The notes beneath the pieces were generated by a model that searched no databases, had not been told where the DNA came from, and saw only the letters and a program-made list of their open reading frames with translations. This document shows, piece by piece, positions 1-60,599 of a stretch of 64,000 nt of DNA. Origin of the DNA: Symbiodinium natans (lineage: Eukaryota > Sar > Dinophyceae > Suessiales > Symbiodiniaceae); assembly GCA_905221605.1 (NCBI GenBank), contig CAJNDS010002402.1, forward strand, positions 62,001 to 126,000. Reading direction: 5' to 3'. The first letter of the stretch is position 1. Each line of letters starts with the position of its first letter. Both the position numbers and the translations under genes were made by a program.

Positions 1-42
1 GCTGGAGTCGTCTCCCAAACATGACATAAAGAAGGACCTGGC

Positions 43-258
43 CTTGTCTTCCAGTGCTGTGGACAGACTGGCGAGCTTGTCTGCGTCTGCCTGTGAGAAG
101 CTGTCCCATCCGCTGCACTTCCCAGCGACAAGCCCTCCCAGACACCCCACACCCCCGGAGTTTCTGTGAAGAGAGGCCTTCATCTCCAAGGTGCCCAGCA
201 CTTGCTGAACACTGCATTGCAGCTCATGTTGCTTCATCTTGACTTCAGAGATTTGAGC
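43..258 (-). CDS. Diverged coiled-coil exons e and f at the left edge
   Basis: Exon e at 178-258 encodes 27 residues beginning AQISEVKMKQHELQ, and exon f at 43-90 encodes ADADKLASLSTALEDK, a shortened f type of 16 residues. Both keep the AG/GCN start and AAG/GC end. They are clearly more diverged than the 1127-bp copies, so the array continues leftwards into older repeats outside the window. Confidence 0.6.
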
Positions 259-3200
259 CTCACATGGGCACCCGCAAGAGTTCAGTAAAGACTGGAAGAG
301 CATTCGGATCATTGTTTCTCGTTTGACTGACTCTTACTCGTATCAGCACAAGCAGGGCCTCTCACCACACAAAGCCCGACCAGGCTTGATACTGTAGCTC
401 TCTGGAGGACTTTGGGTTCGTGTCCCTTTGTAGGGATGATCTGGGATGGCATACTCTACATACCCACTCGAATGAATGAGGCACCGACATCGACCGACGT
501 GCAATTGTCACAGCCGAATGCACAAGGACCCTCCTGGCCTCATGATCCACAGGTGCAGGAGCATGTTGAAGCTGGTCCAGCTTCTGGTGCAGTGTGCTGA
601 TCTCTTCGGCTTCAGCCTGTGACTTATGGATCTTACAGGCCAGGAAATCCAGCAACGAGCGCTCTCAGCGGGCCTTCTGCTCCAGTGCAAGCTCCAGGCG
701 ATCCACCTCCTTCTGCAGCACCGCGGCATCACCCTGCACCTAGTGCTCTTGGCCACTCACTGCCAACCGATGCATCACTCGCGTCAGCAGCTCACCCTAG
801 CCTTGTGCGCAAGCGCCGCCTTTAGCTCCATGCTTTCGTTTTCCAGGGCACTGATTCGCTCCGAGGCCTCACAGGGCTTAAGAGCAGCACACCCACAGAG
901 TGCATCGACTCGGAGGATCTCGAAGGATCCGACATTGGACATGTCGCAACGCGATCGGCACGGAAGGCAACGGCCGCAGGCCTTCTGGACATGCTCCTGC
1001 CCCGCGACGTCATCCCGATCGGCCTGTCGCCCAACACAACCCATATCTCGGTTCGCACACAAGGGCACAATGATTCGCATGCACAGGAAGCCATGGTGTG
1101 AGACAGTGATATCACGCTGAGGTCTCACTTCTTCACATCTTGGCGGGCGCGCGCTCATGACGCGCTGGGACCAATGTCCTGGCCTTGTCCGTCAGAGCCG
1201 CCGAAAGTGTCTGGAGGCTGTGTTGCAAGCTGCTGAGATGGCCCGCATCAGCCTGCAGACGGCCCCTTCCAAGGCTACTAGCCTCGGTGATAAGCAACCA
1301 ATCCCATAACCCATATTGTGTGGCCCGGCCTTCATCTCCAACGAGCTTAGCATGTGTTGCATGCGTTCCTTCATTTCTTGCTGCATCGTCCTCACCTCAG
1401 ACATCTCTGCCTGGCGTTGGAAAAACGCACCGCGACCTATTGATGAGCCAACCTCTACTGGTGCGGTACTGCAGCCGGGGATACTTTACAGGACTAGGTG
1501 TCTATCCAGTCCAAGTGGAGTTCGACTTATGCTTTGCAAGATCCCTGCTTCTCAGGGCACAAAGGGCAGAATGCGAACTGGTCACGATGCCTTAGCTGCT
1601 TAGCTTTAAGGTTCTCCTCCGTTGCATTGCCTAAAGGGGACTTGGCATGTTACACCACACCTGGCCTCATGATCCACAGGTGCAGGAGCATGTTGAAGCT
1701 GGTCCAGCTTCTGGTGCAGTGTGCTGATCTCTTCGGCTTCAGCCTGTGACTTATAGATCTTACGGGCCAGGAAATCCAGCAACGAGCGCTCTCAGCGGGC
1801 CTTCTGCTCCAGTGCAAGCTCCAGGCGATCCACCTCCTTCTGCAGCACCGCGGCATCACCCTGCACCTAGTGCTCTTGGCCACTCACTGCCAACCTATGC
1901 ATCACTCGCGTCAGCAGCTCACCCTAGCCTTGTGCGCAAGCGCCGCCTTTAGCTCCATGCTTTCGTTTTCCAGGGCACTGATTCGCTCCGAGGCCTCACA
2001 GGGCTTAAGAGCAGCACACCCACAGAGTGCATCGACTCGGAGGATCTCGAAGGATCCGACATTGGACATGTCGCAACGCGATCGGCACGGAAGGCAACGG
2101 CCGCAGGCCTTCTGGACATGCTCCTGCCCCGCGACGTCATCCCGATCGGCCTGTCGCCCAACACAACCCATATCTCGGTTCGCACACAAGGGCACAATGA
2201 TTCGCATGCACAGGAAGCCATGGTGTGAGACAGTGATATCACGCTGAGGTCTCACTTCTTCACATCTTGGCGGGCGCGCGCTCATGACGCGCTGGGACCA
2301 ATGTCCTGGCCTTGTCCGTCAGAGCCGCCGAAAGTGTCTGGAGGCTGTGTTGCAAGCTGCTGAGATGGCCCGCATCAGCCTGCAGACGGCCCCTTCCAAG
2401 GCTACTAGCCTCGGTGATAAGCAACCAATCCCATAACCCATATTGTGTGGCCCGGCCTTCATCTCCAACGAGCTTAGCATGTGTTGCATGCGTTCCTTCA
2501 TTTCTTGCTGCATCGTCCTCACCTCAGACATCTCTGCCTGGCGTTGGAAAAACGCACCGCGACCTATTGATGAGCCAACCTCTACTGGTGCGGTACTGCA
2601 GCCGGGGATACTTTACAGGACTAGGTGTCTATCCAGTCCAAGTGGAGTTCGACTTATGCTTTGCAAGATCCCTGCTTCTCAGGGCACAAAGGGCAGAATG
2701 CGAACTGGTCACGATGCCTTAGCTGCTTAGCTTTAAGGTTCTCCTCCGTTGCATTGCCTAAAGGGGACTTGGCATGTTACACCACACCTGGCCTCATGAT
2801 CCATAGGTGCAGGAGCATGTTGAAGCTGGTCCAGCTTCTGGTGCAGTGTGCTGATCTCTTCGGCTTCAGCCTGTGACTTATGGATCTTACGGGCCAGGAA
2901 ATCCAGCAACGAGCGCTCTCAGCGGGCCTTCTGCTCCAGTGCAAGCTCCAGGCGATCCACCTCCTTCTGCAGCACCGCGGCATCACCCTGCACCTAGTGC
3001 TCTTGGCCACTCACTGCCAACCTATGCATCACTCGCGTCAGCAGCTCACCCTAGCCTTGTGCGCAAGCGCCGCCTTTAGCTCCATGCTTTCGTTTTCCAG
3101 GGCACTGATTCGCTCCGAGGCCTCACAGGGCATAAGAGCAGCACACCCACAGAGTGCATCGACTCGGAGGATCTCGAAGGATCCGACATTGGACATGTCG

Positions 3201-6200
3201 CAACGCGATCGGCACGGAAGGCAACGGCCGCAGGCCTTCTGGACATGCTCCTGCCCCGCGACGTCATCCCGATCGGCCTGTCGCCCAACACCACGAATCT
3301 GGATGGGCATAATCTCACGCTGCACGCCGTTGCCTTGCCCCGCAGCTCGGCCACAACAGCATCGAGGTCTGCCTGGCACGAGCAAAGGCTTGGCGCATGG
3401 TGTGGTAGCGCGGGATCCGCTATCACTTGCTCTCATCTCTTGAACGGATCTGTCGTGGCCTTGTCAGCATCCCTATTCTCGCATAGCTCCTGCACCAGAT
3501 CGGCCTTGCATCATCGTGGGGCATCCCGCATTGTTGTTGAACAGCATTCGGTCAAGATATCTTCTATTGCCTTCCGCCATAGGCACATACATGTCCACGT
3601 GATCAAACCTAAGTTACTGACTTCTGCCTCTGCATCCACGCCGAGCATGCCTACTCCCTCTGAGCATTGCGGGTGTGGAGGCCACTGGTGGCCCTTACAT
3701 GTTGGCGTGGGGAAAGGAGTTTCGTTTTTCGAGGAATCGTGGAGTGCCTGTTCCAAGCATGCCCGCTACGGATTCTTCAGATTGGCGGCAGCCGGTGGCC
3801 CCTTCCGAAAAACAAGTGACATATAGTGAACTTCTGTCAGATCATTTTACACCAATGCTCAGAACGTGGGTCTGTGACCTTTGGCGCGCTCCAACGAGAT
3901 GCGAGTGGACTGCAGGTAAACGACCACAAAGCTGTCTTCTCTCGAAGAAGACCGCATCAAGGGAGGTGCACGGCCCTCTAACCCTGAACCTTCCACCGGC
4001 AACCCGAAGCTTGTCGCATTACTTCGCCCAAGAACCGCGCTGCAGTAATACAGCTTCTTCAGGTTGGGGACGCTCAAAAGGCGCACGCTTTCGCAGAAGT
4101 CGGGTGGCCTTGTCTTGCAGAGCCGCCGACAACGTCTGCACGCTCTCTTGCAAGCAGCTCAGCTTGTCCGAATCGGCCTGGGAAGGGCGGTGTCATCACC
4201 CCTGCCATAAAGAGCATTCCCCGCCTGTGCGAATCCTGGGTCCCCCGCCTTCGTCTCCAAGGAGCTTAGCACATGCTGCATGCTCTGCTTCATTTCCTGC
4301 TGCGTCATCTTCACTTCGGACATCTCTGCCTCACGGACAACCGGACAAGCGAGGACCATCCCAACACAGTGTCACAGTAGGGCAGAGTGAACTTCAGAGA
4401 CCGAGATCAAGAGCATGAGCTGCAAAGGGTCTCCCAGAGAGTCTCCCGGCCTCATGGTTCACCGGCATGGGTGGGACATGTTGAAGCTGATCCAGCTTCT
4501 GGTGGACTTTGATGACATCTTCAGCTTCGGCCTGCGGTTTGCGTCATACAGGGGCTCGGGAAAGTCGACCCTTTTATTGGGGGAGACGTGAAACCCCAAT
4601 GAACGCAGAGGACTCAGGAAGTTGACGAAGTCGACTGCGGGATCCTTTCCCCCCAATGAACGCACGGATTTTACAGCTACGACAAACAGCGAAAATCAGT
4701 ACTGTCAGTACGCAGGTATCGAAATCCCCGAGGAACGCTGGGGCTCAACATGCCTGAAAACATCATCCAACATGGTTGCTGAAGGACCTCCGCCCGAGTG
4801 AAACGCAAGCAAAGCATGGAGTCAAGCCTAACAAAACTTACGAGAAGAGGCACCATTTCTCTGAACCTATATCGCATCGTATAGCCAACATGGCTTATGA
4901 CATGCATGCAATTCCGCCCGAGGGAAACGCAGTTTCGGTCGATTTCCTGGAAAGCTTCCCCGCAGTGATTTGCAATCGCAAGAAAAAAGGTCAACTTTCC
5001 ATGTTGCGTGTACCATCCGGCAATCAAAACAGCGGCAACGACAAGGGCTGTGGTAAATGGTGGAGATGTCAAAAGACCGAACAAGAGGTCAAAATCCATC
5101 CAAATCCATCCAGTAGGTCTCAAAAGACTGAGGCCTTTTGGATCACAGCGCCCGTTAGGTGCTGCAGCTGCTGCTGAAGGGCGAGGACGCCGCCGGCATC
5201 TGCCTCGCCAAGCGTACCGCCATGTATAAAACTTATTAAACTACGACATAGACGTCGAATAGTCTTACAGGTCCCGACCTTGCTGTCAAGTGTGGCCCAG
5301 ACTTCCTCCATCGAGACCTCCTCCAACTCAGCCTGCGACCACATTTGCAGGGCTCCACTCCAGAACAAGTATCCAAGGCTTCCCGTAGCCTTGAGATCAT
5401 GCAGCTGTTGGGCCGTTGTGCTTGAGTCTGCCTGCAAGTTGATGGCAAGACTTGGCCTTCATGTTGACTTCTCGTGTGCCTATTGGCTTCAAGCTTTTTG
5501 ACTCTGAATCCCGCGTCCTGACACCTGGTCACCTGACTTATCCTTCCACTCAGCTGCAGAGTGAGTTTTGCCCTTTCTTTGGAGCGGATGCTCGGGACTC
5601 TCCAACCCTACCTCACTGATGCCTGCAGATCGTTCTACATCGTTCTACGGCGTTTTGCCATCCTGGGGTTCGTACTGGAAGTGAGCCTTCGGGTCTGAGT
5701 CTGTTTGTTCGGACCCGCTTTCTGGCAAGCGAGTCGCCCGCAGGTCGCAATAGCTGATGCGCAGGCAATGCTTTCTGATGCTGACTCAGCAATAAGGCTC
5801 GAGGCCAAAAGGAGAAGGAAGGAGAAGAATACGGACGCTCAAAAGGCGCACGCTTTCGCAGAAGTCGGGTGGCCTTGTCTTGCAGAGCCGCTGACAGCGT
5901 CTGCACGCTCTCTTGCAAGCAGCTCAGCTTGTCCGAATCGGCCTGGGAAGGGCGGTGTCATCACGCCTGCCATAAAGAGCATTCCCCGCCTGTGCGAATC
6001 CTGGGTCCCCCGCCTTCGTCTCCAAGGAGCTTAGCACATGCTGCATGCACTGCTTCATTTCCTGCTGCGTCATCTTCACTTCGGACATCTCTGCCTCACG
6101 GACAACCGGACAAGCGAGGACCATCCCAACACAGTGTCACAGTAGGGCAGAGTGAACTTCAGAGACCGAGATCAAGAGCATGAGCTGCAAAGGGTCTCCC

Positions 6201-9200
6201 AGAGAGTCTCCCGGCCTCATGGTTCACCGGCATGGGTGGGACATGTTGAAGCTGATCCAGCTTCTGGTGGACTTTGATGACATCTTCAGCTTCGGCCTGC
6301 GGTTTGCGTCATACAGGGGCTCGGGAAAGTCGACCCTTTTATTGGGGGAGACGTGAAACCCCAATGAACGCAGAGGACTCAGGAAGTTGACGAAGTCGAC
6401 TGCGGGATCCTTTCCCCCCAATGAACGCACGGATTTTACAGCTACGACAAACAGCGAAAATCAGTACTGTCAGTACGCAGGTATCGAAATCCCCGAGGAA
6501 CGCTGGGGCTCAACATGCCTGAAAACATCATCCAACATGGTTGCTGAAGGACCTCCGCCCGAGTGAAACGCAAGCAAAGCATGGAGTCAAGCCTAACAAA
6601 ACTTACGAGAAGAGGCACCATTTCTCCGAACCTATATCGCATCGTATAGCCAACATGGCTTATGACATGCATGCAATTCCGCCCGAGGGAAACGCAGTTT
6701 CGGTCGATTTCCTGGAAAGCTTCCCCGCAGTGATTTGCAATCGCAAGAAAAAAGGTCAACTTTCCATGTTGCGTGTACCATCCGGCAATCAAAACAGCGG
6801 CAACGACAAGGGCTGTGGTAAATGGTGGAGATGTCAAAAGACCGAACAAGAGGTCAAAATCCATCCAAATCCATCCAGTAGGTCTCAAAAGACTGAGGCC
6901 TTTTGGATCACAGCGCCCGTTAGGTGCTGCAGCTGCTGCTGAAGGGCGAGGACGCCGCCGGCATCTGCCTCGCCAAGCGTACCGCCATGTATAAAACTTA
7001 TTAAACTACGACATAGACGTCGAATAGTCTTACAGGTCCCGACCTTGCTGTCAAGTGTGGCCCAGACTTCCTCCATCGAGACCTCCTCCAACTCAGCCTG
7101 CGACCACATTTGCAGGGCTCCACTCCAGAACAAGTATCCAAGGCTTCCCGTAGCCTTGAGATCATGCAGCTGTTGGGCCGTTGTGCTTGAGTCTGCCTGC
7201 AAGTTGATGGCAAGACTTGGCCTTCATGTTGACTTCTCGTGTGCCTATTGGCTTCAAGCTTTTTGACTCTGAATCCCGCGTCCTGACACCTGGTCACCTG
7301 ACTTATCCTTCCACTCAGCTGCAGAGTGAGTTTTGCCCTTTCTTTGGAGCGGATGCTCGGGACTCTCCAACCCTACCTCACTGATGCCTGCAGATCGTTC
7401 TACATCGTTCTACGGCGTTTTGCCATCCTGGGGTTCGTACTGGAAGTGAGCCTTCGGGTCTGAGTCTGTTTGTTCGGACCCGCTCTGGCAAGCGAGTCGC
7501 CCGCAGGTCGCAATAGCTGATGCGCAGGCAATGCTTTCTGATGCTGACTCAGCAATAAGGCTCGAGGCCAAAAGGAGAGGAAGGAGAAGAATACGGACGC
7601 TCAAAAGGCGCATGCTTTCGCAGAAGTCGGGTGGCCTTGTCTTGCAGAGCCGCTGACAGCGTCTGCACGCTCTCTTGCAAGCAGCTCAGCTTGTCCGAAT
7701 CGGCCTGGGAAGGGCGGCGTCATCACCCCTGCCATAAAGAGCATTCCCCGCCTGTGCGAATCCTGGGTCCCCCGCCTTCGTCTCCAAGGAGCTTAGCACA
7801 TGCTGCATGCTCTGCTTCATTTCCTGCTGCGTCATCTTCACTTCGGACATCTCTGCCTCACGGACAACCAGACAAGCGAGGACCATCCCAACACAGTGTC
7901 ACAGTAGGGCAGAGTGAACTTCAGAGACCGAGATCAAGAGCATGAGCTGCAAAGGGTCTCCCAGAGAGTCTCCCGGCCTCATGGTTCACCGGCACGGGTG
8001 GGACATGTTGAAGCTGATCCAGCTTCTGGTGGACTTTGATGACATCTTCAGCTTCGGCCTGCGGTTTCCAGCATGTCATACCATGCGGCAATCAAAACAG
8101 CGGCAACGACAAGGGCTGCGGTCCTTCTGCTCCAGGGCAAGCTGCATGCGCTCCACCTCCTTCTGCAGCGCGGCGGCGTCTTCCTCCACCTCACAGCAAA
8201 TACCGCTGTCCACTCGTGCACTGGAAAGCGTGGCAGGCCTGCTTGATGTGATCCTTTGGCGCAGCCTCGTCCCGATCAGCCTGGCATTCGAAGGCTGTGC
8301 ATGACGGGTGGGCAAAGTCCCATGGTTCGTTTCAGCCATGCACGTATGCACGTGGCGGAGATGTCATCAAGAGACAACAATACATCCCATACGTCGACAG
8401 GCAAGACTACACAGTGCAAAGCTGAAAGCCTTCTGGTTCAGGGTGCTAGTCAGCTGCTGCAGCTGCTGCTGCAGGGCGAGGACACCGCTGGTGTCTGCCT
8501 CGCCAAGCGAAAACAACAACTACCACCCTGCCCCTGCGTCCCTGTGACCCTGTACCCCCGCCCCTGCCCTGCGTCCCTGTGCCCGCCCCCGCCCCTCCCC
8601 CCTTTCCCAAACCCTGATGACAGAGGAACACACACACACACGAGGTACTGGCCTTGCTGTCAAGTGTGGCCCAGACATCCTCCATCGAGAGCTCCTCCAA
8701 CTCAGCCTGCGGATCACAATCGTGTCCAACACCACGTTTGCAGGCCGCTCACTCCAGAACACGTATCCAGGGCTTCCCGTAGCCTTGAAGTCATGCAGCT
8801 GCTGGGCCGTTGTGCTTGAGTCTGCCTTCAAGCTGATCGTGTCTGGCACTTTGCCACACTGTGCATTTGGCTTCAAGCTTTTTGACTCCTGGTCACCTGA
8901 TTCTCCCATCCCACTCAGCTGCAGAGCGCCACATACCCAGCACGAGTTTGCCCTTTCTTTTGAGCGCATGCTCGAAAGCCTACCTAACTGCAGATCGTTC
9001 TACATCGTTCTACGGCAGCTGATGCGCAGGCAATGCTTTCTGTTGCTGACTCAGCAATGAAGCTCGAGCCCTCTGCAGGGCTCGACTACGACTCTGTCGC
9101 CGACTAACCGGAGCTGCAGTACCACAGCGCGTCAAAAGACAAAAGAGAACAATACAACTACGCAGCGCAAAGCTGGTGCCTTCTGGTTCAGGGAGCTGGT

Positions 9201-10732
9201 TAGCTGCTGCAGCTGCTGCTGCACGGCAAAGACACTGCCGGCATCGGCCTCGCCAAGTGTGCCAACAAGCAGAAGAAAAGAGCTACACTAATATGTACAG
9301 TGCAGATGTCGAATCGTCTGACGTGTCCTAAGAACATGCCGAACAGCCTGACGACGAAGGATCACACACACACACACACACCCATGGTCCTAACCTTGCT
9401 GTCAAGCGTGGCCAAAACTTCCTCCATCGAGACCTCCTCCAACTCAGCCTGCGACCACATTTGCAGGGCTCTCACTCCAGAACACATATCCAAGGCTTCC
9501 CGTAGCCTTGAGATCATGCAGCTGCTGGGCCGTTGTGCTTGAGTCTGCCTGCAAGTTGATGGCAGTGAAACTTGCTTAAGCGTCCGTGTCGCAGACTCCT
9601 GCCCCGCAGCCCTCGGCATAACGCAGGAGCAGGAGCAGTAGCAGTAGGAGGAGTAGTAGCAGCAAAACTAATCGTAGTTGTCGTAGTCGTCGTCATGGTG
9701 CTCCGGGGGCCTTGTCTTGCAGAGCCGCCGACAGCGTCTGCACGCTCTCTTGCAAGCAGCTCAGCTTGTCCGAATCGGCCTGGGACGGGCGGTGTCATCA
9801 CCCCTGCCATAAAGAGCATTCCCCGCCTGTGCGAATCCTGGGTCCCCCGCCTTCGTCTCCAAGGAGCTTAGCACATGCTGCATGCTCTGCTTCATTTCCT
9901 GCTGCGTCATCTTCACTTCGGACATCTCTGCCTCATGGACAACCAGACAAGCGAGGACCATCCCAACACAGTGTCACAGTAGGGCAGAGTGAACTTCAGA
10001 GACCGAGATCAAGAGCATGAGCTGCAAAGGGTCTCCCAGAGAGTCTCCCGGCCTCATGGTTCACCGGCACGGGTGGGACATGTTGAAGCTGATCCAGCTT
10101 CTGGTGGACTTTGATGACATCTTCAGCTTCGGCCTGCGGTTTCCAGCATGTCATACCATGCGGCAATCAAAACAGCGGCAACGACAAGGGCTGCGGTCCT
10201 TCTGCTCCAGGGCAAGCTGCATGCGCTCCACCTCCTTCTGCAGCGCGGCGGCGTCTTCCTCCACCTCACAGCAAATACCGCTGTCCACTCGTGCACTGGA
10301 AAGCGTGGCAGGCCTGCTTGATGTGATCCTTTGGCGCAGCCTCGTCCCGATCAGCCTGGCATTCGAAGGCTGTGCATGACGGCCCAAGTGGGGTGGAAAC
10401 ACGCTGGCACATGATGGGCAAAGTCCCATGGTTCGTTTCAGCCATGCACGTATGCACGTGGCGGAGATGTCATCAAGAGACAACAATACATCCCATACGT
10501 CGACAGGCAAGACTACACAGTGCAAAGCTGAAAGCCTTCTGGTTCAGGGTGCTAGTCAGCTGCTGCAGCTGCTGCTGCAGGGCGAGGACACCGCTGGTGT
10601 CTGCCTCGCCAAGCGAAAACAACAACTACCACCCTGCCCCTGCGTCCCTGTGACCCTGTACCCCCGCCCCTGCCCTGCGTCCCTGTGCCCGCCCCCGCCC
10701 CTCCCCCCTTTCCCAAACCCTGATGACAGAGG

Positions 10733-10769
<37 letters not shown>

Positions 10770-12938
10770 TACTGGCCTTGCTGTCAAGTGTGGCCCAGAC
10801 ATCCTCCATCGAGAGCTCCTCCAACTCAGCCTGCGGATCACGATCGTGTCCAACACCACGTTTGCAGGCCTCTCACTCCAGAACACGTATCCAGGGCTTC
10901 CCGTAGCCTTGAGATCATGCAGCTGCGCCGTTGTGCTTGAGTCTGCCTGCAAGCTGAGCATCGGTGTCGCAGATTCTTGCCCCGCATTATTATCATTTAC
11001 AAAGTCGGGCGGCCTTGTCTTGCAGTGCCGCCGAAAGTGTCTGAACGCTCTCTTGCAAGCAGCTCAGCTTGTCCGAATCGGCCTGGGAAGGGCGGTGTCA
11101 TCACCCCGCAATAAAGAGCACTCCCTGCCTTTGTGAATCCTGTGGTACCTGGCCTTCGTCTGCAAGGAGCTTAGCATGTGCTGCATGCTCTGCTTCATTT
11201 CCTGCTGCATCATCTTCACTTCAGATATCTCCACCTTGTCGTGAAAGGAACTGGATGCTCGATCAAGCTTCTGAACTTTGCCTGGCTGTTAGACCTGTAC
11301 CAAAAAAAACAGAAAGCCCGTAGAGCCTCATGGCCACACTCCACAGAATACAGCAAGCAGAGTCAAACAATTGAAAAACAGTGATGCATTACGCTGTAGA
11401 CTGTAGAGGCCATCTGGCCGAAAAGCAACGTGTTTCCCCAAACAAGAACAGCCTCCTGGTCCACAGGTGATTGAAGCTGTAGCTCGTGGTGAAGCTTGCT
11501 GATCTCTTCTGTTTCTGCCTGTACATGAAGTTGAATTCAGCAAGCACTGCCAAAAACTGCTGATGCGGCAGCAGGCCTTTTGCTGCAAAGCACGGTCCAG
11601 ACGCTCCACTTCTTTCTGCATCAAAGCGGCGTCTCCCTGAAAGGCACCAGTCCGTATTCGCAAGCACATGTACACTGAAACCGGAATCCAGCCTTGCGAA
11701 CAAGTGCTGCCTTCAGCTCGATGCTCTCACGCTCAAGGAAGTTTATGCGATCCGAGACCTGTGTAGGCTCAAGTCGGCTCAAGGCTCAAGGCGCCACAGC
11801 AAGAACCGCATATCAGGCAGAAACTCTGGCAAACTCTTACACCGGGCACACGGCATATCGCATCCAGAATGTGACATCCGGCACGTCCGGCACGCAGACC
11901 GTTCTCAAACAGTCAGCTTCCTGCAGTCACAATCATGAGAATCATGAGAAGCACCGAAGCATAGGGCGCTATGGCTATGGCTAGAACAAGAATCAAGCTG
12001 CCGGAGATCACCAGCGAGGAGTGCTTAGTGGGGCCCGAGCAGCTTCCGATGGCGTAGGAATGCTCGGCTCCATGATGGTGCGAATGCGGCGTACGCGGCG
12101 TCAAATCCCACAAGTGCAAATTCCGCAGGGAAGGTCAACCAAAAACAAAGAAAGATGACAACATGGTGAAAACCGTTTCTAAACTTCGTGAAAATATACT
12201 CCTACGATCACGCGGGACACTGCCAATGCCTGTGGGTCAATATTCGAGCCGTGGGTGGCAAAGCATGCACGCATCAGCATGCAGAACAATCGATATGCCA
12301 AGATGACATTATGGGCCGCAGCTGTTTGCTGTTGCCCGAAGACGAGGCCGCAGCAGGGCCACACTTGTGAACCTGCAAGCACGCAAGCCCAGAGGCAGCA
12401 AAGGCGAGACAGAGGGAGAACAACACGCCACAACACGACACAACATGCCACAACATGCCACAACATGCCACAACAACAATAAGAACAAGAAGAACCAAGG
12501 TGCAGCAACACGAGCAGAAAAACGACAACAGTAAAAATGCTACGTAACCTGTACAAGTCTCCAAGCTCCCAGGGGCTCTACGCGGCTCTACTGTTCACAA
12601 AGGCGCCTGCCCAGTGGAGTCCATTCCTCGGACGAACTTGTCGAGGAACCCACTTTCGAGAGCCTGGGGGAGAAACCATCAGAAACGCCTGTTGGCCAAA
12701 TGCACAAAATATCTCACGCAAACAGGAGCGGTAAGAAGAGAGAGAGGCTTCCCGAGAGGAGCGTCCCGAGAGGGGGGCATCCCGACGAGAGAGCGTGTTC
12801 TCTCTCTCTCTCTCTCTCTCAAATGATCTCTTGGTGCCTTGTCGGCACGCCGCCGCTCGGCCGTCGTCAGGCGCCCATCCGCGTCTTGGTCAAAGCACTT
12901 GCCGATGAAATAGTCAAGCTGGCCCACAACTCCATCAC
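43..12938 (-). CDS. Modular coiled-coil protein with EF-hand exon, many micro-exons (3' end beyond window)
   Basis: A single minus-strand gene is inferred from 56 short exons plus an EF-hand exon. Nearly every exon starts at a GCN (Ala) codon right after AG and ends in AAG (Lys) or GAG (Glu) before a GC, GT or GA donor, so all are phase 0-0 and any number can be added or lost in frame. Modules are 13-27 residues, amphipathic and rich in Gln, Glu, Leu and Lys, as in a rod-like coiled coil. Types, named here: e (27), f (23), b or R (14), a (18) or S (22), c (23) or G/g (20-22), d (22-27). About 1185 residues fall inside the window and the array runs off the left edge. I recognise no named family; a cytoskeletal or scaffold role is inference. 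The exon calls rest on repeated splice-compatible boundaries and homology between copies, not transcripts. Confidence 0.75.
539..1410 (-). CDS. 132-residue coiled-coil cassette e-f-R-S-G-d (1127-bp repeat, copy 1)
   Basis: Exons: e 1330-1410, f 1184-1252, R 982-1023, S 802-867, G 674-733, d 539-616; exactly 1127 bp from the equivalents in the next copy, with only scattered single-base differences, mostly in introns (for example near 626, 770 and 1756). Confidence 0.7.
1666..2537 (-). CDS. 132-residue coiled-coil cassette e-f-R-S-G-d (1127-bp repeat, copy 2)
   Basis: Exons: e 2457-2537 (AEMSEVRTMQQEMKERMQHM), f 2311-2379 (ADAGHLSSLQHSLQTL), R 2109-2150 (ADRDDVAGQEHVQK), S 1929-1994 (ASERISALENESMEL), G 1801-1860 (GDAAVLQKEVDRLELALEQK), d 1666-1743 (AEAEEISTLHQKLDQLQH). 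Lengths 27+23+14+22+20+26 = 132 codons, the same total as the differently built e-f-b-a-c-d cassette. Every donor here is GC. Confidence 0.7.
2793..4329 (-). CDS. Hybrid coiled-coil cassette e-f-X1-X2-R-S-G-d
   Basis: Exons: e 4249-4329, f 4109-4177, X1 3460-3504 (15 codons, ADLVQELCENRDADK), X2 3334-3372 (13 codons, ADLDAVVAELRGK), R 3236-3277, S 3056-3121, G 2928-2987, d 2793-2870. X1 and X2 occur only here. This is where the 1765-bp family (e, f) joins the 1127-bp family (R, S, G, d), so X1/X2 mark the junction. A further splice-compatible segment at 3571-3627 encodes a non-coiled 19-residue stretch and is doubtful. Confidence 0.6.
4451..6094 (-). CDS. 132-residue coiled-coil cassette e-f-b-a-c-d (1765-bp repeat, copies 1-2)
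   Basis: Exons: e 6014-6094, f 5874-5942, b 5390-5431, a 5279-5332, c 5135-5203, d 4451-4531; again 132 codons. All exon positions are the neighbouring cassette minus 1762-1765, and introns match almost base for base, so this is a very recent duplication. Exon e differs from the 7776 copy at one Ser/Cys position (KQC versus KQS). Confidence 0.7.
6216..7856 (-). CDS. 132-residue coiled-coil cassette e-f-b-a-c-d (spans the 1765-bp repeat, copies 2-3)
   Basis: Exons: e 7776-7856 (27 codons, AEMSEVKMTQQEMK at start), f 7636-7704 (23, ADSDKLSCLQESVQ), b 7155-7196 (14, ADSSTTAQQLHDLK), a 7044-7097 (18, AELEEVSMEEVWATLDSK), c 6900-6968 (23, ADAGGVLALQQQLQ), d 6216-6296 (27, AEAEDVIKVHQKLDQLQHV). 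The sum is exactly 132 codons. The c-d intron is about 600 bp and free of recognisable exons. Confidence 0.7.
7978..9931 (-). CDS. Coiled-coil cassette with an internal b-a-c duplication (copy A region)
   Basis: Exons: e 9851-9931, f 9711-9779, b 9507-9548, a 9395-9448, c 9180-9248, then a second b 8784-8825, a 8653-8706, c 8430-8498, then R 8239-8280, g 8124-8189, d 7978-8058; 223 codons. Type a appears here with a GT donor (9395 copy) and a GC donor (8653 copy), so donor type drifts between duplicates. The second b ends in DFK instead of DLK. No S-type exon is recognisable between R and g. Confidence 0.65.
8628..10766. repeat. CA/TG microsatellites in coiled-coil gene introns
   Basis: Short CA tracts occur at about 8628-8641, 9364-9382 and 10735-10766. 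They sit at the same place relative to exon a in three duplicated cassettes and differ in length, so they are natural markers for ordering the duplications. Confidence 0.8.
10053..11234 (-). CDS. Coiled-coil cassette e-f-b-a-c-R-g-d (copy B of the ~2.1-kb repeat)
   Basis: Exons in transcription order: e 11154-11234, f 11014-11082, b 10908-10946, a 10777-10830, c 10536-10604, R 10314-10355, g 10199-10264, d 10053-10133; 167 codons. Exon b has lost one Gln codon (13 instead of 14 residues) relative to its sisters, an in-frame 3-nt deletion. Exon e starts VEISEV instead of AEMSEV. Exon g ends before a GA donor, exon a before a GC donor. The intron between a and c carries a long CA tract (from about 10735). 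Confidence 0.65.
11453..11758 (-). CDS. Coiled-coil exons S, G, d (first cassette after the EF-hand)
   Basis: Three exons in transcription order: S 11693-11758 (22 codons, begins VSDRINFLERES), G 11577-11636 (20 codons, GDAALMQKEVERLDRALQQK) and d 11453-11518 (22 codons, AETEEISKLHHELQLQ). They are the most divergent copies of the S, G and d types that recur at 0.5-3.1 kb, so the S-G-d order is old and was not created by the recent duplications. Donors are GC after AAG, AAG and GAG. Confidence 0.65.
11760..12837. other. Intron or spacer with no recognised exon
   Basis: Between the S exon at 11693-11758 and the EF-hand exon I find no module matching the coiled-coil pattern. The stretch holds a CAACATGCCA tandem repeat (about 12430-12475) and a CT run (about 12800-12820). 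Open frames here are low-complexity reading of these repeats. Confidence 0.5.
12838..12938 (-). CDS. EF-hand exon at the 5' side of the coiled-coil gene
   Basis: Read on the minus strand this exon encodes LDYFIGKCFDQDADGRLTTA followed by Glu, with a complete EF-hand loop: Asp at positions 1, 3 and 5, Gly at 6, a hydrophobic residue at 8 and Glu at 12. It ends in AAG before a GC donor (exon edge at 12838), the same phase-0 Lys/GC boundary used by the coiled-coil exons downstream, which suggests it belongs to the same transcript and would make the rod calcium-responsive. The upstream boundary is uncertain: AG sites at 12923/12924 and 12939/12940 are both possible. No paired second EF-hand was found upstream. 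A separate small gene cannot be excluded. Confidence 0.55.
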
Positions 12939-28065: not shown

Positions 28066-31000
28066 CTCAATGTAGAGAGGGAGAGAGGGAGGAGGAGAGA
28101 GAGTAGGGAGAGAGAAGAGCGAGGAGAGAGACACGGACGGAGAACGAGACTGGAGAGCGGCGAAAAATGCAAAAGAGCGAGCGCGAGATGGAGTGGTTTG
28201 GGAGTAGTGAGATTGGCAGGTGTGTTTGACAACGACTGTCCTCATCTACAAAGAGGTGCACAGAGGAGCCAGACGAGGAAGACATCCTGAGCCAGCCGCC
28301 GTTGTTGCCATTGCGTGATGACTGGCTTCCCACCACAAGTGGTGAATCGGTTCCCAAGTCCACTGACAGGCTGACTTCGGTCGCTCCCTCGTCCAGACCC
28401 TTCACGACGGCGTTTGTCAATGCAACACTGTAGGCAACAGGTCCCAGCTCCGTATCAAAGCTGCCCTGTCCCGCCTCCATGGCAACATAGCCTACTTCTT
28501 CCGTTACGTTGACATCTCCAACCTTCGATGTCTCAGCTGATTCCAAGGCAACGGACACTTCCGTCTCAGACAGAGCCTCACAAGCTAAAGTTAGCCAGGG
28601 CTTGGAGAAGAATCTCGGCACAGCCCCTTGCTCGTTGTTCGCGCTCTGCAGGGTTGCTACGACTGCTGGTACGGAGGCGAATGGTGAGAGGAAGCCGATC
28701 TTGGCCCAACCGGCACTAACCCCCTGAGCTTGGCAACTTGTGCCCACTTGCCTGGCTGAAATCTCCTTCAGCCCAGCTTCAACTGTCCGGCCATCAGGCA
28801 GCATATGCACTCCAGGCAGAACAGCCATGTAGGACACCGTCATGTCTGTTCGGGTGTCAGTCGGCCCTGGTGGAACCACAACGAGAGCCTGGAAGCCCGA
28901 GGCAGACACGGATCTGACCCGTACACTGAGTGGAATTGTCTCTCCACCAGCGCTCGCCCCGGGCATCAGCACGACCACAGGCAGACCCTCAAATCTGCTC
29001 TGGAAGGAAAAGCTCTGCCATCCAGCACTTTCACCTCGCAGATTGGGCAAATACGCAGAGTTGGCACATGCTGTCGCTCACTTCATCTGACCCTACACCG
29101 GCCACTTTGAGCACTATGCAGTGTTACTGCGCTTCCCCCTGCCTGCCACAACGATCGTGCCAACTTCGAGGAACGCGGAGCCGGCTGCATTGGTGGTCGA
29201 TGAGCCTGGGGCCTGTGTGGTCGTGGTTGTCATCACAGTCGTTGTGGTGGTCGTTGTGGTGGTCGTGGTGGTCGTTGTGGTGGTGGTTGTGGTGGTCGTT
29301 GTGGTGGTCGTGGTGGTGGTGGTGGTGGTGGTGGTGGTGGTGGTGGTGGTGGTGGTGGTGGTGGTGGTGGTGGTGGTGGTGGTGGTGGTAGTGGTGGTAG
29401 TAGTGGTAGTGGCGGTAGTGGCGGTGGCGGGCAGCGCAAGGCTACCGGACCACGCGATCAGGGCAACTTGTTCACTAGCATGCTTCCTTTCATCATCGCA
29501 GTACGTGTCTTCATCAATGAAGGCTGCAACTGTAGAACTTGCCACTGACGACACTCGAAGAAATCCACCATCCGACCCCACGCGTGACACTTGACTCCCC
29601 AGGACTAGAGGAGACACTGTCTGGAGATCTGTCTGCAAGGGCACCTGCGTGATTCCGTCATCCAGGCCCTTGACCACCTCTCCTGTCACCAGCGCACTAT
29701 AAAGCACCTGCTGGGACGCAACCTGAATGCTTCCGTGACCGACCTCCATGGCAAGGTACCCGACCTCCTCTGCCACTGTGATGGTTCCGACATTCGATGT
29801 CTCTCCCGACTCCAATGCGATGTCGGCGGACGATACCGACAATGAGGAGGCGGCCACTGTCATCCAAGGTGTGGAGAAAGTCATTGGCACATTTCCTGCC
29901 TCGTTGTTGGCAGTCTGCAATGTCAGCAGCAAAGCAGGGGGCGCCCCATACAAGTTCCAGAACAGCAGGCTCGACCAGCTTGTTGAGAGCCCGGAAGCCT
30001 TGCAGTTACTGGACGCCTGGCGGGCCACGGTTTGCACTCGCCCTGCCTCGAACCTTCGACCATCCGGAAGCTGGTGCACACCCGCTGCCGCCGCCATGTA
30101 TGCCACAGTCATGCCCGAGTGATTGCCAGATTGGCCGGGGGGGACGGCAACCAGCGCCTCACGGGCGATATAACGACTTATAAGGGCTACAATCAGGCTA
30201 CAGTTTACAATCGGCTACCAGGTTTTGCAGTGCGCTTGCCAACAGTTTTTTTGGAGTTCATGAGAACCCTGCCTCGAAGCTGGCTGCAGTGACACCACGG
30301 ATGCGAACATTCGCCGGTACAGCCTGTCCCGTCGGGAGAACAACAATCACCGGCGGCTGCTCGAACTGACTGCGCAAGTGGAAGACCTGCCAGCCATCCT
30401 GACCTGCCCGCCCCCGTGGATGATGCACAGGTCTCAATACTCTGGTCTAGAAGATCCGACTGCTGCACACACTAGCATGAGCCGGTACGGGACATGATGG
30501 CAGATCACCCGTGAAGTTCCTACTGCAAGCATCTGACATCGCAGTCACCCGATGCATCCGCAGGCGTGGCGGATGAGAGTTCCAAGCTGAGCGCGAAATG
30601 CAACTCCAGTCCCAGCCTGTGACAGTGATCTCCCCAACCTCCAGAAAGGGGCCGGATACTGGAGGTGGCGGCTCGCGAGTTGTGGTGGTGGTCGTCGTGG
30701 TCGTCGTGGTCGTGGTCGTGGTCGTCGTCGTCGTGGTCGTTCCAGTGGTGCCGCCGATCAGCCTTGCAATCCGCAGCACGTGCATCATGGATGTGCATGT
30801 GCCAGTCCTTACAAGAAACATCTCCTGTCACAGTGCTGAGACTGCAGCCGGCATCGATAGGCGTCCAATACTTGCTTGATGTCACCCTCGGACAAGTGAT
30901 CTCGATTTCCCACGAGTTTGTTGTTTGATGTGGGAATCGCATCGAAGTAGTAGCCATTCGCAATTGTGCGGTTGCTGCTTCTCTGACGGTAATAGTGCAT

Positions 31001-32235
31001 GATGCTTTCCTCGGATGTGACAGCACAGACGCACAGCGTAGCCGATATCAATTTCAGTGGCAGCTGAATCTAAACAAGGAAACTCATGATAGCCATTGCG
31101 CAACACCGGGTAATGCATCCGTTGTAAGCATTCTAAGCTTCATAGTCGTACGCCGCATGGCCAATCTGTGGATCAGCCCCGCCATCGTCCGCTGATCCGA
31201 TGTACGTCTTCTCAGACGGAAGATATTGAGACACCCATCGGCTGTCCACGTTCTCCCAGTACATCTGCAAAGCAGGACCCTTTCCATAGTACTCCGCTTG
31301 CGCATCCGCCCGCTTCTGCTCGTGATTCAGACCCAAGCCTGCAAAAGAGTGGATGTCACTACCGACAGGGCATGCGTGGCGATGACAAAAAAAGGTACAT
31401 GCGCGGCTGTGAAAGAGCCGAGTCAGCCGAGTGGCAGTGGCCAATTTCATGAACCATGCTGCCCCTGTGGTTCATGTTCTTGCACCATCCTAAGTTGATC
31501 CTGCCATAGCTGTAGGGCCTACCCAAGTTGGACCAGCAGCTTCCGGTGTCGTAGATGCCAATGAGATAGTAGGGAGAGACGGCAGCATCATCCTCAATCA
31601 CCGCAACGCATGTGTGCGTGCGCCAGTCGGCCGCTGCTGCCCGGAAAGCCTCCTTCCGTGTGTCGTCGACATCAGTGTCGAACTTGTACCGAACGACCAC
31701 ATACTCCTCCCACTGCGGGACCATGCCCTCCGGCGCCTGGCTGGTACGCTCGATCCACGGCCGGCCAGCTTGGCAGCCTGGACTGTCATTGCAAAGCCTC
31801 TCCCACATGGGGTTGGAAGTCTCACTGGCCACTTCGTCTTGCAAGAGGGCGGCCTTGGCTGCGTCTCCTTCATCAAGCGGTATGCCGTCTTCCTCTTGCG
31901 CCGGTGTCAGTCGCTTGCCGGCAACAACCGAATCAACGTAGGCGGTTGCGGCTGCATTCGGCTTGAGAAGTCCCGCACGGACCGAGCCACCACTTTCAAA
32001 AGGGCCCAGCCAACGATAAACGCGCATTGGGCAAGAATCTCCCATCACGCAATCACCCAGAGGGGCTGGCAAGGTGAGTCCAGGCCGGGGAGATGCTCCC
32101 CAGACAGCTGTGTTCAGTAGACTTGCCCCACATCGACATTCATCTTGCACCAACGCAAACAGGTCTAAGCCCTGACTGATGCAGAACTCGAAGCACAAGG
32201 ATGCTGTGAGCTCATTGGAGCGCATGCGGAAGAAC
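26226..32235 (-). CDS. Astacin-type metalloprotease with WSC-like region and repeated lectin-like units
   Basis: Resolved exons: 31436-32235, 31142-31338, 30825-31009, 30617-30762, 30273-30403, 29143-30157, 28241-29034, 27672-28065, then less certain exons, ending with 26312-26226 and a TGA stop. Reading frames stay in phase across all these joins. The order is a WSC-like Cys region, a propeptide-like stretch, an astacin catalytic domain and three ~300-residue repeat units joined by poly-Thr linkers. Astacins are secreted zinc endopeptidases; lectin-like units would target it to glycans on a surface or matrix (inference). Introns start GC or GA and end AG. The true N-terminus with signal peptide was not found upstream of 32235, so the gene is incomplete at its 5' end as annotated. 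Confidence 0.8.
28241..29034 (-). CDS. Repeat unit 2 of the astacin gene
   Basis: A single 794-bp exon joined to unit 1 through a 108-bp GC-AG intron (29035-29142). It contains the same landmarks in the same order: GWQSFSFQSRF, PVVVLMPG, SGFQALVVVPPG, MTVSYMAVLPGVHMLPDG, SANNEQG, EEVGYVAMEAG, VVKGLDEG, SPLVVGSQ and HLFVDE. It ends at a GA donor and joins DAYCDSERSH across a 175-bp intron rich in CT on the sense strand. Confidence 0.75.
29143..30762 (-). CDS. Poly-Thr linker and repeat unit 1 of the astacin gene
   Basis: Exon 30617-30762 encodes a Thr-rich linker then FLEVGEITVTG; exon 30273-30403 gives DGWQVFHLRSQFEQPPVIVV and ends SFE; exon 29143-30157 continues ALVAVPPG, then MTVAYMAAAAGVHQLPDG, TANNEAG, EEVGYLAMEVG, VVKGLD, SPLVLGSQ and DEDTYCDDERKH, followed by a second linker of roughly 65 Thr. 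The W..F...F..PP pattern with a later GF/SF strand resembles H-type lectin domains, but I cannot confirm the family from sequence alone. Introns are GC-AG: 30404-30616 and 30158-30272. Confidence 0.75.
29205..29425. repeat. (GTG/GTC) triplet tract coding for the poly-Thr linker
   Basis: On the minus strand this is ACN-type codons (ACC, ACG, ACT), giving about 65 threonines within the astacin gene. The codon mixture at the right part and pure CAC/ACC at the left suggests the left part expanded recently. Related shorter tracts are at about 30680-30740 and 27950-27985. Confidence 0.85.
31142..32235 (-). CDS. Astacin catalytic domain and WSC-like N-terminal part
   Basis: After the acceptor at 32236 comes a Cys-patterned segment, LCFEFCISQGLDLFALVQDE then CRCG, resembling the second half of a WSC domain. 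About 150 residues further on WEEYVVVRYKF and HTCVAVIED match the start of an astacin domain. The zinc site is built across a 97-bp GC-AG intron (31339-31435): MVHEIGH before and CLGLNHEQKR after, giving HExxHxxGxxH. The Met-turn is built across a 132-bp GA-AG intron (31010-31141): AAYDY before and ESIMHYY after. All catalytic signatures are therefore present, so the protease is likely active. Confidence 0.85.
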
Positions 32236-32905
32236 CTGCGTCAGACGAAGGCATTCTCACAGACAGCAGGAACCAAAGATGCAAATGAGGCAAGGCACGG
32301 CATGCCGCCACGGCAGGGCGAGTCCTACGAAGCTGCAGAGAGGTCTTCGGTTTGGACTTGGTTCGGGTCACATGCGGATGCACTCACATGCAGATGCACT
32401 CACACGCACTCACATGCACTCCTGCCGCCAGTCGATGCAAGTCTCATCAGCTCCATCTTCCGAAGGGGGCGCTTCATCTCCTCTGCACAGCTTCAAGAAC
32501 AGAACCCACTTGCGCCCAAAGGGAGGGGACGAAAGTTACAAAGGCAGAGCACGCACATCCAACGATCCAGCATCATGAGCACCAGGCGGCCCTGTTTTCT
32601 CCTAAAGCGCTTGTGTCAAGCCTGAGCGATGCTCCCTCTGCTCGATTTCAAGGCCGACAAGTTGACCCATGCCCACGAACAGGACGAGGCGACGACTCGC
32701 ATTACAGCATTAGGTCTTCGGTGGCCTTACACGAAATCTGTGGCACAGCTCAATGCTTTGAGGTACATAAGATGTGTTTGTATATATTTGTTAGAGGCGG
32801 CTTGAGTAGGCATGGGGAATCCCTAACCACTGTACCAATGCACGCGAAGGAGTCCGCCTCGGGCTGTCGTCAGATCCCGTGCGAGACCTGGAGTGATCTC
32901 TAGCT

Positions 32906-43938: not shown

Positions 43939-45249
43939 TCATCTCTCACGCCGTTTGTCATCCTCGTCGTCGCTGAAGTCGGCGTCTTCATCCATGCGAC
44001 CTCTCTCTGCCGGCTTCTTCTTCCTCTTGTCGGCATTGCCGAGCATTCTCGAAACGCCTGCTTCCGTCTTTTTGTGTCCTTGCAACACACACGGGACAAG
44101 TACTGACTACGGCTCAGAACACAAAGCAAGAAGTTACTCAATGCGCACATTCATTACATTTCATTACATTTCATTACACTCATGGCAAAGTCATATGCAC
44201 GGTCGATAGAAAACGCTAAGCTGGGAAGCTGAAGTCTGGAGCGCTCGCTTTCCTTCTTCTCTCTCTCTCTCTTCTCTCTTCTTCTCTTCTCTCTCTCTTC
44301 TCTTCTTCTCTTCTTCTCTTCTTCTCTTCTTCTCTTCTTCTTCTCTCTCTTCTTCTCTTCTTCTCTTCTTCTCTTCTTCTCTTCTTCTCTTCTTCTCTTC
44401 TTCTCTTCTTCTCTTCTTCTCTTCTTCTCTTCTTCTCTTCTTCTCTTCTTCTCTTCTTCTCTTCTTCTCTTCTTCTCTTCTTCTCTTCTCTTCTTCTCTT
44501 CTTCGTCTTCTCTTCTTCTCTTCTTCTCTTCTTCTCTTCTTCTCTTCTTCTCTTCTTCTCTTCTTCTCTTCTTCTCTTCTTCTCTTCTTCTCTTCTTCTC
44601 TTCTCCTCTTCTCTCTTCTCCTCTCTTCTCTTCTTCTCTTCTTCTCTTCTTCTCTTCTTCTCTTCTTCTCTTCTTCTCTTCTTCTCTTCTTCTCTTCTTC
44701 TCTTCTTCTCTTCTTCTTCTTCTTCTTCTCTTCTTCTCTTCTTCTCTTCTTCTCTTCTTCTCTTCTTCTCTTCTTCTCTTCTTCTCTTCTTCTCTTCTTC
44801 TCTTCTTCTCTTCTTCTCTTCTTCTCTTCTTCTCTTCTTCTCTTCTTCTCTTCTTCTCGTCTTCTCTTCTTCTCTTCTTCTCGTCTTCTCTTCTTCTCTT
44901 CTTCTCTTCTTCTCTTCTTCTCTTCTTCTCTTCTTCTCTTCTTCTCTTCTTCTCTTCTTCTCTTCTTCTCTTCTTCTCTTCTTCTCTTCTTCTCTTCTTC
45001 TCTTCTTCTCTTCCTCTCTCTCTCTCTCTCCCTCTCCCTCCCTCTCTGCCTGCTTTTTTGAGGACTTTGACTTTCTTGGGACGACAATCTCGACTGCAAC
45101 TGTAGCTGGCGCGACCGAGATGCCATTCTAGCTTGCAACGATGCATCCTGCAAAGCGCGATGCAGAGGCTGCCAAGCAAAGTGCTCCCAGAGTGCTACAG
45201 ATTCTGGGTCCTTGATGTCTTCAGGCTCCTCGGCGGGATGCGGAGGAGC
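43939..45249 (-). CDS. Charged, probably nuclear protein; two exons flank the octamer repeat
   Basis: An exon starting at 45249 after CTGAG reads APPHPAEEPEDIKDPESVAL, then WEHFAWQPLHRALQDASLQ and a Ser/Gln-rich tail to about 45050, where it runs in frame into the purine octamer repeat. A later exon, 43939-44078, starts after TGCAAG and reads KKTEAGVSRMLGNADKRKKK, then ERGRMDEDADFSDDEDDKRR and a TGA. Basic clusters followed by an acidic run suggest a nuclear protein. Whether the Glu-Lys-Arg repeat between them is translated is undecided; I favour an intron. Confidence 0.4.
44240..45040. repeat. ~800-bp polypyrimidine (TTCTTCTC)n octamer repeat
   Basis: Nearly the whole stretch is a tandem 8-bp unit CTTCTTCT with a few interruptions (CGTCTTCT near 44500, 44860 and 44880; short CTC variants near 44600). 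The + strand is all pyrimidine except rare G. Because 8 is not a multiple of 3 and no stop is present, all minus-strand frames are open, giving a spurious eight-residue Glu-Lys-Arg periodic protein. Confidence 0.9.
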
Positions 45250-56864: not shown

Positions 56865-56968
56865 CTTCGCTCAATCTTCTCAAGGCTGAAAACTTCCTGC
56901 GTTTCTCTAACTTTAAACAGCAGGCCCTGGCTACCCTCGTTCTAAACTTGCAGAGAGAAAGAGATAGA

Positions 56969-57004
<36 letters not shown>

Positions 57005-60557: not shown

Positions 60558-60599
60558 TCTTCACACAAGAGGAAGGCTTTCCGAGGTTTTTTCCGGGTT

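Follow-up and report, generated by a model that had tools for sequence, protein, structure and literature searches.

The 64,000 nucleotides of the Symbiodinium natans contig CAJNDS010002402.1 that were analysed here (positions 62,001 to 126,000; hereafter the window) carry an array of short exons on the minus strand, which extends from position 11758 to position 43. The initial annotation had described a phase-0 exon array, and its presence beyond chance was confirmed by using a strict pattern that requires an AG acceptor, the codons GCN GAN, an open frame of 12-30 codons without stop, a final AAG or AAA and a GC, GT or GA donor. This pattern starts at 35 sites on the minus strand of positions 1-12000 and at none on the plus strand of the same interval, while 200 first-order Markov simulations gave a mean of 0.34 and a maximum of 3. 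Elsewhere, four sites were found on the remaining 52 kb of the minus strand and four on the whole 64-kb plus strand. The 35 sites are not independent because many of them are copies, and three are candidates outside the core set. The hand-curated core set comprises 54 exons of 39-81 bp, corresponding to 1,153 codons. From a relaxed exon list, candidates were retained according to their choice of residues and a threshold of helix propensity, and homology brought S 11693-11758 and M 11154-11234 into the core as well. The core exons were picked for an open frame and splice edges, which itself favours the reading; the independent test is conservation.

The exons fall into types, designated by letters, and recur in cassettes, all on the minus strand. 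Cassette A (11014-11758) is open and in phase 0 and consists of S 11758-11693, D 11636-11577, E 11518-11453, M 11234-11154 and L 11082-11014. It is followed by the exons T 10946-10908, W 10830-10777 and G 10604-10536 (10536-10946). Cassette B (9180-10355) contains R 10355-10314, D 10258-10199, E 10133-10053, M 9931-9851, L 9779-9711, T 9548-9507, W 9448-9395 and G 9248-9180, and a tandem extra T-W-G copy lies at 8430-8825 (T 8825-8784, W 8706-8653, G 8498-8430). The next block runs from R to G (6900-8280) with R 8280-8239, D 8183-8124, E 8058-7978, M 7856-7776, L 7704-7636, T 7196-7155, W 7097-7044 and G 6968-6900. Two blocks begin with an E exon that is preceded by neither R nor D, namely 5135-6296 (E 6296-6216, M 6094-6014, L 5942-5874, T 5431-5390, W 5332-5279, G 5203-5135) and 4109-4531 (E 4531-4451, M 4329-4249, L 4177-4109). 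Downstream, a cassette of 132 codons is present as C1 (2311-3277; R 3277-3236, S 3121-3056, D 2987-2928, E 2870-2793, M 2537-2457, L 2379-2311) and C2 (1184-2150; R 2150-2109, S 1994-1929, D 1860-1801, E 1743-1666, M 1410-1330, L 1252-1184). Cassette C3 (539-1023) holds R 1023-982, S 867-802, D 733-674 and E 616-539, and the last exons in the window are M 258-178 and L 90-43 (43-258), the latter being seven codons shorter than the other L exons. Here the gene runs off the window, and its 3' end is not seen because the array reaches the window edge.

Outside the 54 exons there are two N-terminal exons, treated below, and three candidates at 3334-3627 (3627-3571, 3504-3460 and 3372-3334), which show only the pattern of Ala-Asp/Glu at the start and Lys at the end. 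In a codon-score scan with two control stretches, slightly longer versions of two candidates (3451-3504 and 3328-3372) reached 7.7 and 5.2 and did not exceed the control maxima of 9.2 and 11.4, and 3571-3627, the least convincing of the three, was not recovered. The count of at least 56 exons given initially is thus reached only by adding weaker exons (12838-12938, 12607-12663, 3571-3627, 3460-3504, 3334-3372) to the core of 54. The rule that each module begins with Ala-Asp/Glu holds for 42 of the 54 core exons, the other 12 starting with GD (4), AS (3), ED (2), VS, VE or AQ (1 each). Similarly, Lys (44/54) or Glu (8/54) ends 52 exons, as had been claimed for all, and Gln ends the other two. 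The median exon length is 67.5 bp and 39 of the 54 exons are under 70 bp; they count as small exons, and as micro-exons in a looser sense only.

All 54 core exons are multiples of three with phase 0 at both edges; they were chosen as such, and the choice was then backed by conservation. The acceptor is AG followed by G in every case and the donors are GC (49), GT (3) or GA (2), in line with the splice sites of the initial annotation. These predicted sites match the kind reported for Symbiodiniaceae, a match that is supported at the level of sequence (PMC11453091, PMC5177918). GC, GT and GA donors are shared with ordinary intron-rich genes of this family (PMC5177918), and dinoflagellates are reported to use atypical splice sites and to be gaining introns actively (PMC11453091). 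On the strength of its splice sites, the DNA is read as dinoflagellate and most likely nuclear. The dimensions are different: S. microadriaticum is reported to have 21.8 exons per gene with a mean exon of 109.5 bp and a mean intron of 504.7 bp (PMC5177918), whereas at least 54 exons are packed into 11.7 kb here and the 53 introns have a median of 77 bp (range 55-831). In 45 of these introns, in-frame read-through is blocked. With mostly GC donors and most exons shorter than 70 bp, genes of this type may be overlooked or truncated by standard gene-prediction programs.

Self-alignment uncovered copies of several ages. The region 533-2164 matches 1660-3291 at 99.6% (offset 1127), 4068-6305 matches 5833-8067 at 99.4% (offset 1765) and 7628-8836 matches 9704-10957 at 95%. 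Among the 13 self-alignments longer than 150 bp with at least 88% identity, nine reach at least 94.9%, and all 36 of their ends lie in introns; the remaining four are about 90% identical, and eight of their 16 ends fall within exon M. In two recent copies, exons R and D are missing and the reading frame is intact, and the G-E introns of these copies retain the start of the D-E intron (44 bp of it in the intron 6297-6899). Thus, the duplication of multi-exon cassettes in tandem with the frame kept is supported by the sequence, and the frame-neutral duplication and deletion of exons that had been proposed are borne out for multi-exon cassettes and for the exons R and D, respectively. With exon identities of about 99%, 95% and 80%, the copies are of several ages, from which the order of duplications should be readable. 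Copies as similar as those at offsets 1127 and 1765 are of the kind that assemblers mishandle, and an assembly could miscount three near-identical 1127-bp units. It is nevertheless very unlikely that the near-identical cassettes are an assembly artefact and that the true gene is shorter, because some bases differ between the copies and the diverged cassettes A, B and C cannot arise in this way.

The diverged cassettes allow the exons to be compared with their introns. Over the stretch of cassette A from D to L (10960-11660), exon identities for A-B, A-C and B-C are 0.83, 0.79 and 0.80, and intron identities are 0.53, 0.45 and 0.47 (Fisher p = 8e-5, 9e-9 and 1e-4). The corresponding dN/dS ratios, calculated for exon types of the same length and with E omitted, are 0.20, 0.18 and 0.29; with the M exon at 178, two comparisons gave 0.15 and 0.16 and one further comparison, with C, was saturated. 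Variable columns are distributed over the three codon positions as 42/21/72 (p = 5e-7). Moreover, conservation falls at the predicted junctions: across 19 homologous pairs, it is 0.41 in the intron flank, 1.00 at the AG and 0.79 in the exon at the acceptor, and 0.80 in the exon, 0.92 at the donor and 0.40 in the intron at the donor side. Together, the higher identity of exons than of introns, the dN/dS ratios of 0.18-0.29 and the drop at the junctions point to spliced coding exons under purifying selection.

These data bear on the possibility that the array is a decaying pseudogene, whose exons were copied locally and whose translation has been lost. The near-identity of the recent copies, introns included, needs no selection and would fit such decay. 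However, the dN/dS ratios between the old copies, the bias towards third positions and the restriction of length variants to whole codons (66, 78 or 81 bp for E, 39 or 42 bp for T, 48 or 69 bp for L) are at odds with it. Furthermore, a search with 33 distinct exon sequences, at the level of both DNA and peptide, found neither disabled exon copies nor copies beyond the 54 in the whole window, and no match contained a stop; stops or frameshifts in other copies, which had been named as evidence against a gene, were thus absent from the window. The 11 blastn matches with 2 or 4 gap positions all involve the M exon at 178 as one of the two partners, and we read these as paired gaps arising from cheap gap costs since all M exons are 81 bp long. 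A pseudogene is accordingly an improbable explanation.

The exon edges could also have been made by introners, transposons that create introns, entering an older uninterrupted repeat at AG-G sites, rather than by the duplication of exons together with their introns. Introners, a topic treated in PMC9860276, have been reported to be active in dinoflagellates (PMC11453091), and AG and GC-like bases flank the introns on both sides. Introns of this origin would be expected to show target-site duplications of 3-9 bp and to form families common to several sites. In 44 of the 53 introns the flanking repeats add up to 3-5 bases, which is about what splice signals give, and the left-side match, the only side controlled, is 2.28 in the real introns versus 2.13 with swapped introns. 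No intron family was detected among the 53 introns beyond those at cassette junctions, and all 16 cross-type intron matches involve introns at cassette junctions or at the sites of R-D loss. In addition, 18 of 36 exon-type pairs align at z > 2.5 against shuffles (e.g. L-G, 0/500), although shared heptads also raise these scores. Nothing within these 53 introns speaks positively for introners; an origin of the edges by them is considered unlikely, and the duplication of exons with their introns is the reading followed below.

It might further be argued that the array represents several shorter genes in tandem, of a cassette or two each, with their ends hidden in the introns of 600-831 bp. Such arrays are reported to be common in dinoflagellates (PMC11453091), and the longest introns measure 603, 603 and 831 bp. 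On the other hand, each of the 54 exons is bounded at both ends by phase-0 edges of the internal type, and the 21-base spliced leader has no match in the 64-kb window, where a 12-base piece of it was found five times versus 8.6 expected. Judged by the exon edges and the spliced leader, this arrangement is quite unlikely. The array is best explained as a single long gene on the minus strand, spliced and protein-coding, to which we assign a probability of roughly 65% on the basis of its sequence features.

The predicted protein would be rich in amphipathic helices. Within exons, the heptad period of 3.5 is strong (z = 8.7 for 29 unique exon peptides); heptad spacing was no criterion for exon choice, but the earlier helix cut may favour helical exons. 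In the exon types T, R and W, taken by themselves, the heptad signal is weak. The joined chain has periodicity peaks at 3.82, 3.86 and 3.32 and none at 3.5, which makes a continuous two-stranded coil unlikely. Since the heptads are strong within exons and not continuous along the chain, we read the rod as segmented, and shifts in register at the exon joints are deduced from the two periodicities. Of the coiled-coil gene claimed initially, the amphipathic helical modules with heptads stand, whereas an unbroken rod is not supported, given the missing 3.5 peak and the proline-rich ends of the type E exons.

Upstream of the core lies a putative EF-hand exon (12838-12938, minus strand; DGVVGQLDYFIGKCFDQDADGRLTTAERRRADK) with the acceptor ACTGAG and a GC donor. 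Its 3' edge is in phase 0, but its 5' edge begins with two bases of a codon, and the claim that all exons are phase 0-0 thus applies to the 54 core exons and not to this one. A second candidate exon (12607-12663, minus strand; ALESGFLDKFVRGMDSTGQ) has a CAG acceptor and a GC donor and is proposed from its sequence and splice edges only. An EF-loop pattern matched once in the six frames of the window and never in 20 mononucleotide shuffles. In a phmmer search of the PDB, the exon hit 117 sequences at E up to 10, the best being CaBP4 (E = 0.0078). The Pfam family EF-hand_5 was reached with E = 0.12, below the cut-off, by a 28-residue piece, and Pfam returned nothing for pieces of 53 and 50 residues. 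The EF-hand proposed for the start of the rod is therefore weakly supported, by one 12-residue loop, and the exon may belong to another gene.

The initial annotation had recognised no named protein with this design. With respect to protein family this stands: neither Pfam (join of 28 of the 54 exons) nor the PDB (joined rod exons) gave a match above the cut-off, and nebulin repeats were thus not recognised by Pfam in that join. The design itself, by contrast, appears to be of a known kind, as judged by analogy with precedents in animals, in which small frame-neutral or tandem-duplicated exons have been described for schistosomes (PMC10526429) and nebulin (PMC7109182). The micro-exon genes of Schistosoma are reported to have 10-20 short exons of 6-81 bp per gene, mostly multiples of three and most of them 15 bp, and an early paper cited in the same source names in its title tandemly repeated exons encoding 81-base repeats (PMC10526429). 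They encode secreted proteins, have introns of 0.1-5 kb and generate variants mainly by splicing of central exons (PMC10526429). The array shares with them consecutive short exons in multiples of three (54/54 at 39-81 bp), but it differs by its short introns, its GC donors and its amphipathic helix modules (PMC10526429). In nebulin, the eight exons of each repeat in exons 82-105 are present three times and vary in copy number (PMC7109182), and segmental duplications and size isoforms have been described for nebulin and titin (PMC7109182, PMC9109913, PMC9142044). The likeness lies in a very long repeat protein whose gene contains tandemly duplicated multi-exon blocks (PMC7109182); sequence and kingdom are different, actin-binding repeats are not evident in the array, the gene described here is far smaller, and a role in rod length is one that we infer for the array. 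Within dinoflagellates, the light-harvesting complex polyprotein genes of Symbiodinium have grown by intragenic duplication, a likeness in that the growth took place inside the locus, but there the repeated units are whole proteins and not short helical exons (PMC4351107); dinoflagellate polyproteins are reported to be cut apart (PMC11453091). By title and among the matches listed, no open paper was found that describes such a dinoflagellate gene, and none was found on micro-exons in dinoflagellates or on tandemly repeated coiled-coil exons. The sole match for dinoflagellates, exon duplication and coiled-coils concerns Tetrahymena, and those for tandem or symmetric phase-0 exon duplication concern plants.

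If the gene is expressed as read, it would be a clean natural case of phase-symmetric exons and short introns that lengthen or shorten a helical rod with the frame intact. The introns would serve as sites at which unequal recombination can cut without touching the code, and phase symmetry would keep every product readable; cassette number, and hence rod length, could therefore drift freely. The protein may be a segmented coiled-coil stalk of pieces of 13-27 residues in which the register shifts at the exon joints and every type E exon ends in a proline-rich hinge, possibly with a putative calcium-sensing EF-hand near its N terminus. As to its cellular role, we can only guess at a structural spacer or tether, e.g. 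in the cortex or the flagellar apparatus. More speculative still, and rather improbable, is a protist rod whose length is set by frame-neutral cassettes and differs by individual and splice form, i.e. an adjustable ruler or tether that is tuned by calcium at one end and belongs to a family unknown outside dinoflagellates.

Beyond these comparisons, tblastn of viral and prokaryotic contigs gave no relative, and Rfam and tRNA scans of the window were empty. A threefold join of exon L brought up 19 sub-threshold Pfam families (best NPV_P10, E = 1e-4), which we read as generic coil resemblance. Among 26 other minus-strand open frames, two have a Pfam family above the cut-off.

The minus strand carries an array of 54 short predicted exons between positions 11758 and 43, which together comprise 1,153 codons within 11.7 kb. 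Every exon is open, has a length divisible by three (39-81 bp, median 67.5) and follows an AG|G acceptor (54/54), while the donors are GC in 49, GT in three and GA in two cases. Ala-Asp/Glu forms the first residues of 42 of the 54 exons, and the last residue is Lys in 44, Glu in eight and Gln in two. The introns range from 55 to 831 bp (median 77). Nine exon types can be distinguished by sequence (S, D, E, M, L, T, W, G and R); they follow each other from 5' to 3' as SDEML TWG RDEML TWG TWG RDEML TWG EML TWG EML RSDEML RSDEML RSDEML, and the gene continues past the window edge at base 1.

The initial annotation had proposed phase-0 exons that begin with Ala-Asp/Glu after AG and end in Lys or Glu before GC, GT or GA. 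When a strict version of this pattern was counted by start sites, 35 starts, copies included, were found on the minus strand of 1-12000 vs none on the plus strand of that interval, and 200 Markov simulations gave a mean of 0.34 and a maximum of 3. Conservation is stronger proof of the exons than this excess. Among three diverged stretches that each hold a multi-exon block (10960-11660, 9660-10280 and 2260-3010), exon identity is 79-83% vs 45-53% for introns, dN/dS is 0.18-0.29 and the Fisher p values of the comparisons are 8e-5, 9e-9 and 1e-4, with 42, 21 and 72 variable columns at codon positions 1, 2 and 3. When 19 pairs of homologous exons are compared, identity rises from 0.41 immediately upstream of the acceptor to 1.00 at the AG and is 0.79 in the exon; on the donor side it falls from 0.80 before the donor to 0.40 past it. 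Moreover, copies of one exon type vary in length only in steps of a full codon (E 66, 78 and 81 bp; T 39 and 42 bp; L 48 and 69 bp). Taken together, conservation, codon-position bias, junction profile and whole-codon variants indicate that the 54 are real exons, as predicted from sequence, with the edges first proposed. In-frame read-through is blocked by a stop or a wrong length for 45 of 53 introns. With 33 distinct exon DNAs as queries, along with the peptides they encode, the entire window yielded neither further exon copies nor stop codons inside exon matches. Two or four gap positions occur in 11 blastn matches, all involving the M exon at 178, and were read as paired gaps, given the uniform 81-bp length of the M exons.

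Self-alignment revealed tandem offsets of 1127 (99.6%), 1765 (99.4%) and 2076 (95.0%). Thirteen self-alignments exceed 150 bp and 88% identity; the nine at 94.9% or more have 36/36 ends in introns and the four at about 90% have 8/16 ends inside exon M; no probability is attached to these counts because the self-alignment rows overlap. Exons R and D are absent from two cassettes (with E at 6296-6216 and 4531-4451). One of these cassettes is a recent duplicate of the other, so R and D were probably removed in a single two-exon loss that kept the frame and was later duplicated. The intron joining G to E retains 44 bp (95%) from the start of the usual post-D intron, from its second base, and we infer that the absence reflects loss and not gain elsewhere. 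A 187-residue open frame, present in two recent copies on the minus strand (4680-5240 and 6445-7005), spans the G exon and the G|E intron and overlaps the sequence standing where R and D are absent; it is probably due to chance.

Upstream, a putative EF-hand exon (12838-12938, minus strand) carries DQDADGRLTTAE; nothing else in the window fits the EF-loop pattern, which is also absent from 20 mononucleotide shuffles. Its top PDB sequence match is calcium-binding protein 4 (E 0.0078), and Pfam EF-hand_5 is reached at E 0.12 with a 28-residue piece and is absent with longer pieces. The 5' edge of this exon is not in phase 0, since two bases of a codon follow its acceptor. Its strand and position, together with the Lys|GC edge, suggest membership in one gene with the 54 exons.

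Within exons, hydrophobic residues are spaced by 3.5 residues (z 8.7, 29 unique peptides); taken alone, this periodicity is slight in types T, R and W. The joined chain peaks at 3.82, 3.86 or 3.32, not at 3.5, which we read as register shifts at the exon joints. Furthermore, type E exons have a proline-rich end (HVPPVPVNHE or HAPAPVDHE; just SPVDQE in one copy). From these peaks and proline-rich ends, we picture the predicted protein as a segmented rod and not a single unbroken coil. The codon differences among E and T exons are not multiples of seven. The last L exon (43-90, minus strand) is seven codons shorter than the other seven L exons, which equals one heptad length. Pfam gave no family above cut-off for exon joins, and in PDB the joined first 16 exons had no match with E under 0.1.

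The array shares its many short exons of whole codons with schistosome micro-exon genes (PMC10526429), and its tandem multi-exon blocks in a long repeat protein with nebulin (PMC7109182) and titin (PMC9142044), where such blocks are large. Intragenic duplication has been published for Symbiodinium light-harvesting genes (PMC4351107). No dinoflagellate coiled-coil gene of such a design was found in the open literature searched. The mostly-GC donors agree with the usage published for Symbiodiniaceae: S. microadriaticum uses GC, GT and GA donors and has 21.8 exons per gene with a mean of 109.5 bp (PMC5177918), and 25-74% of introns in the family are GC or GA-AG (PMC11453091). As for further backing of a Symbiodiniaceae origin, no spliced leader was found in the window and no relative in viral or prokaryotic collections.

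Elsewhere on the minus strand, two open frames contain known domains: H-type lectin (E 5e-6) at 28070-29077, and astacin protease (E 2e-11) adjoining a sub-threshold WSC domain at 31362-32240. They possibly encode a single surface or secreted protein, or two of them. Three further open frames (55802-60560, minus strand) contain six copies of a motif rich in cysteine, similar to CPxxFxDCGxCxCVPxxTCxWC, for which no Pfam family was found at E up to 1. Finally, a 0.8-kb CTTCTTCT repeat with a period of 16/24 (44253-45047) yields Lys/Arg/Glu-rich repeats when read in minus-strand open frames.
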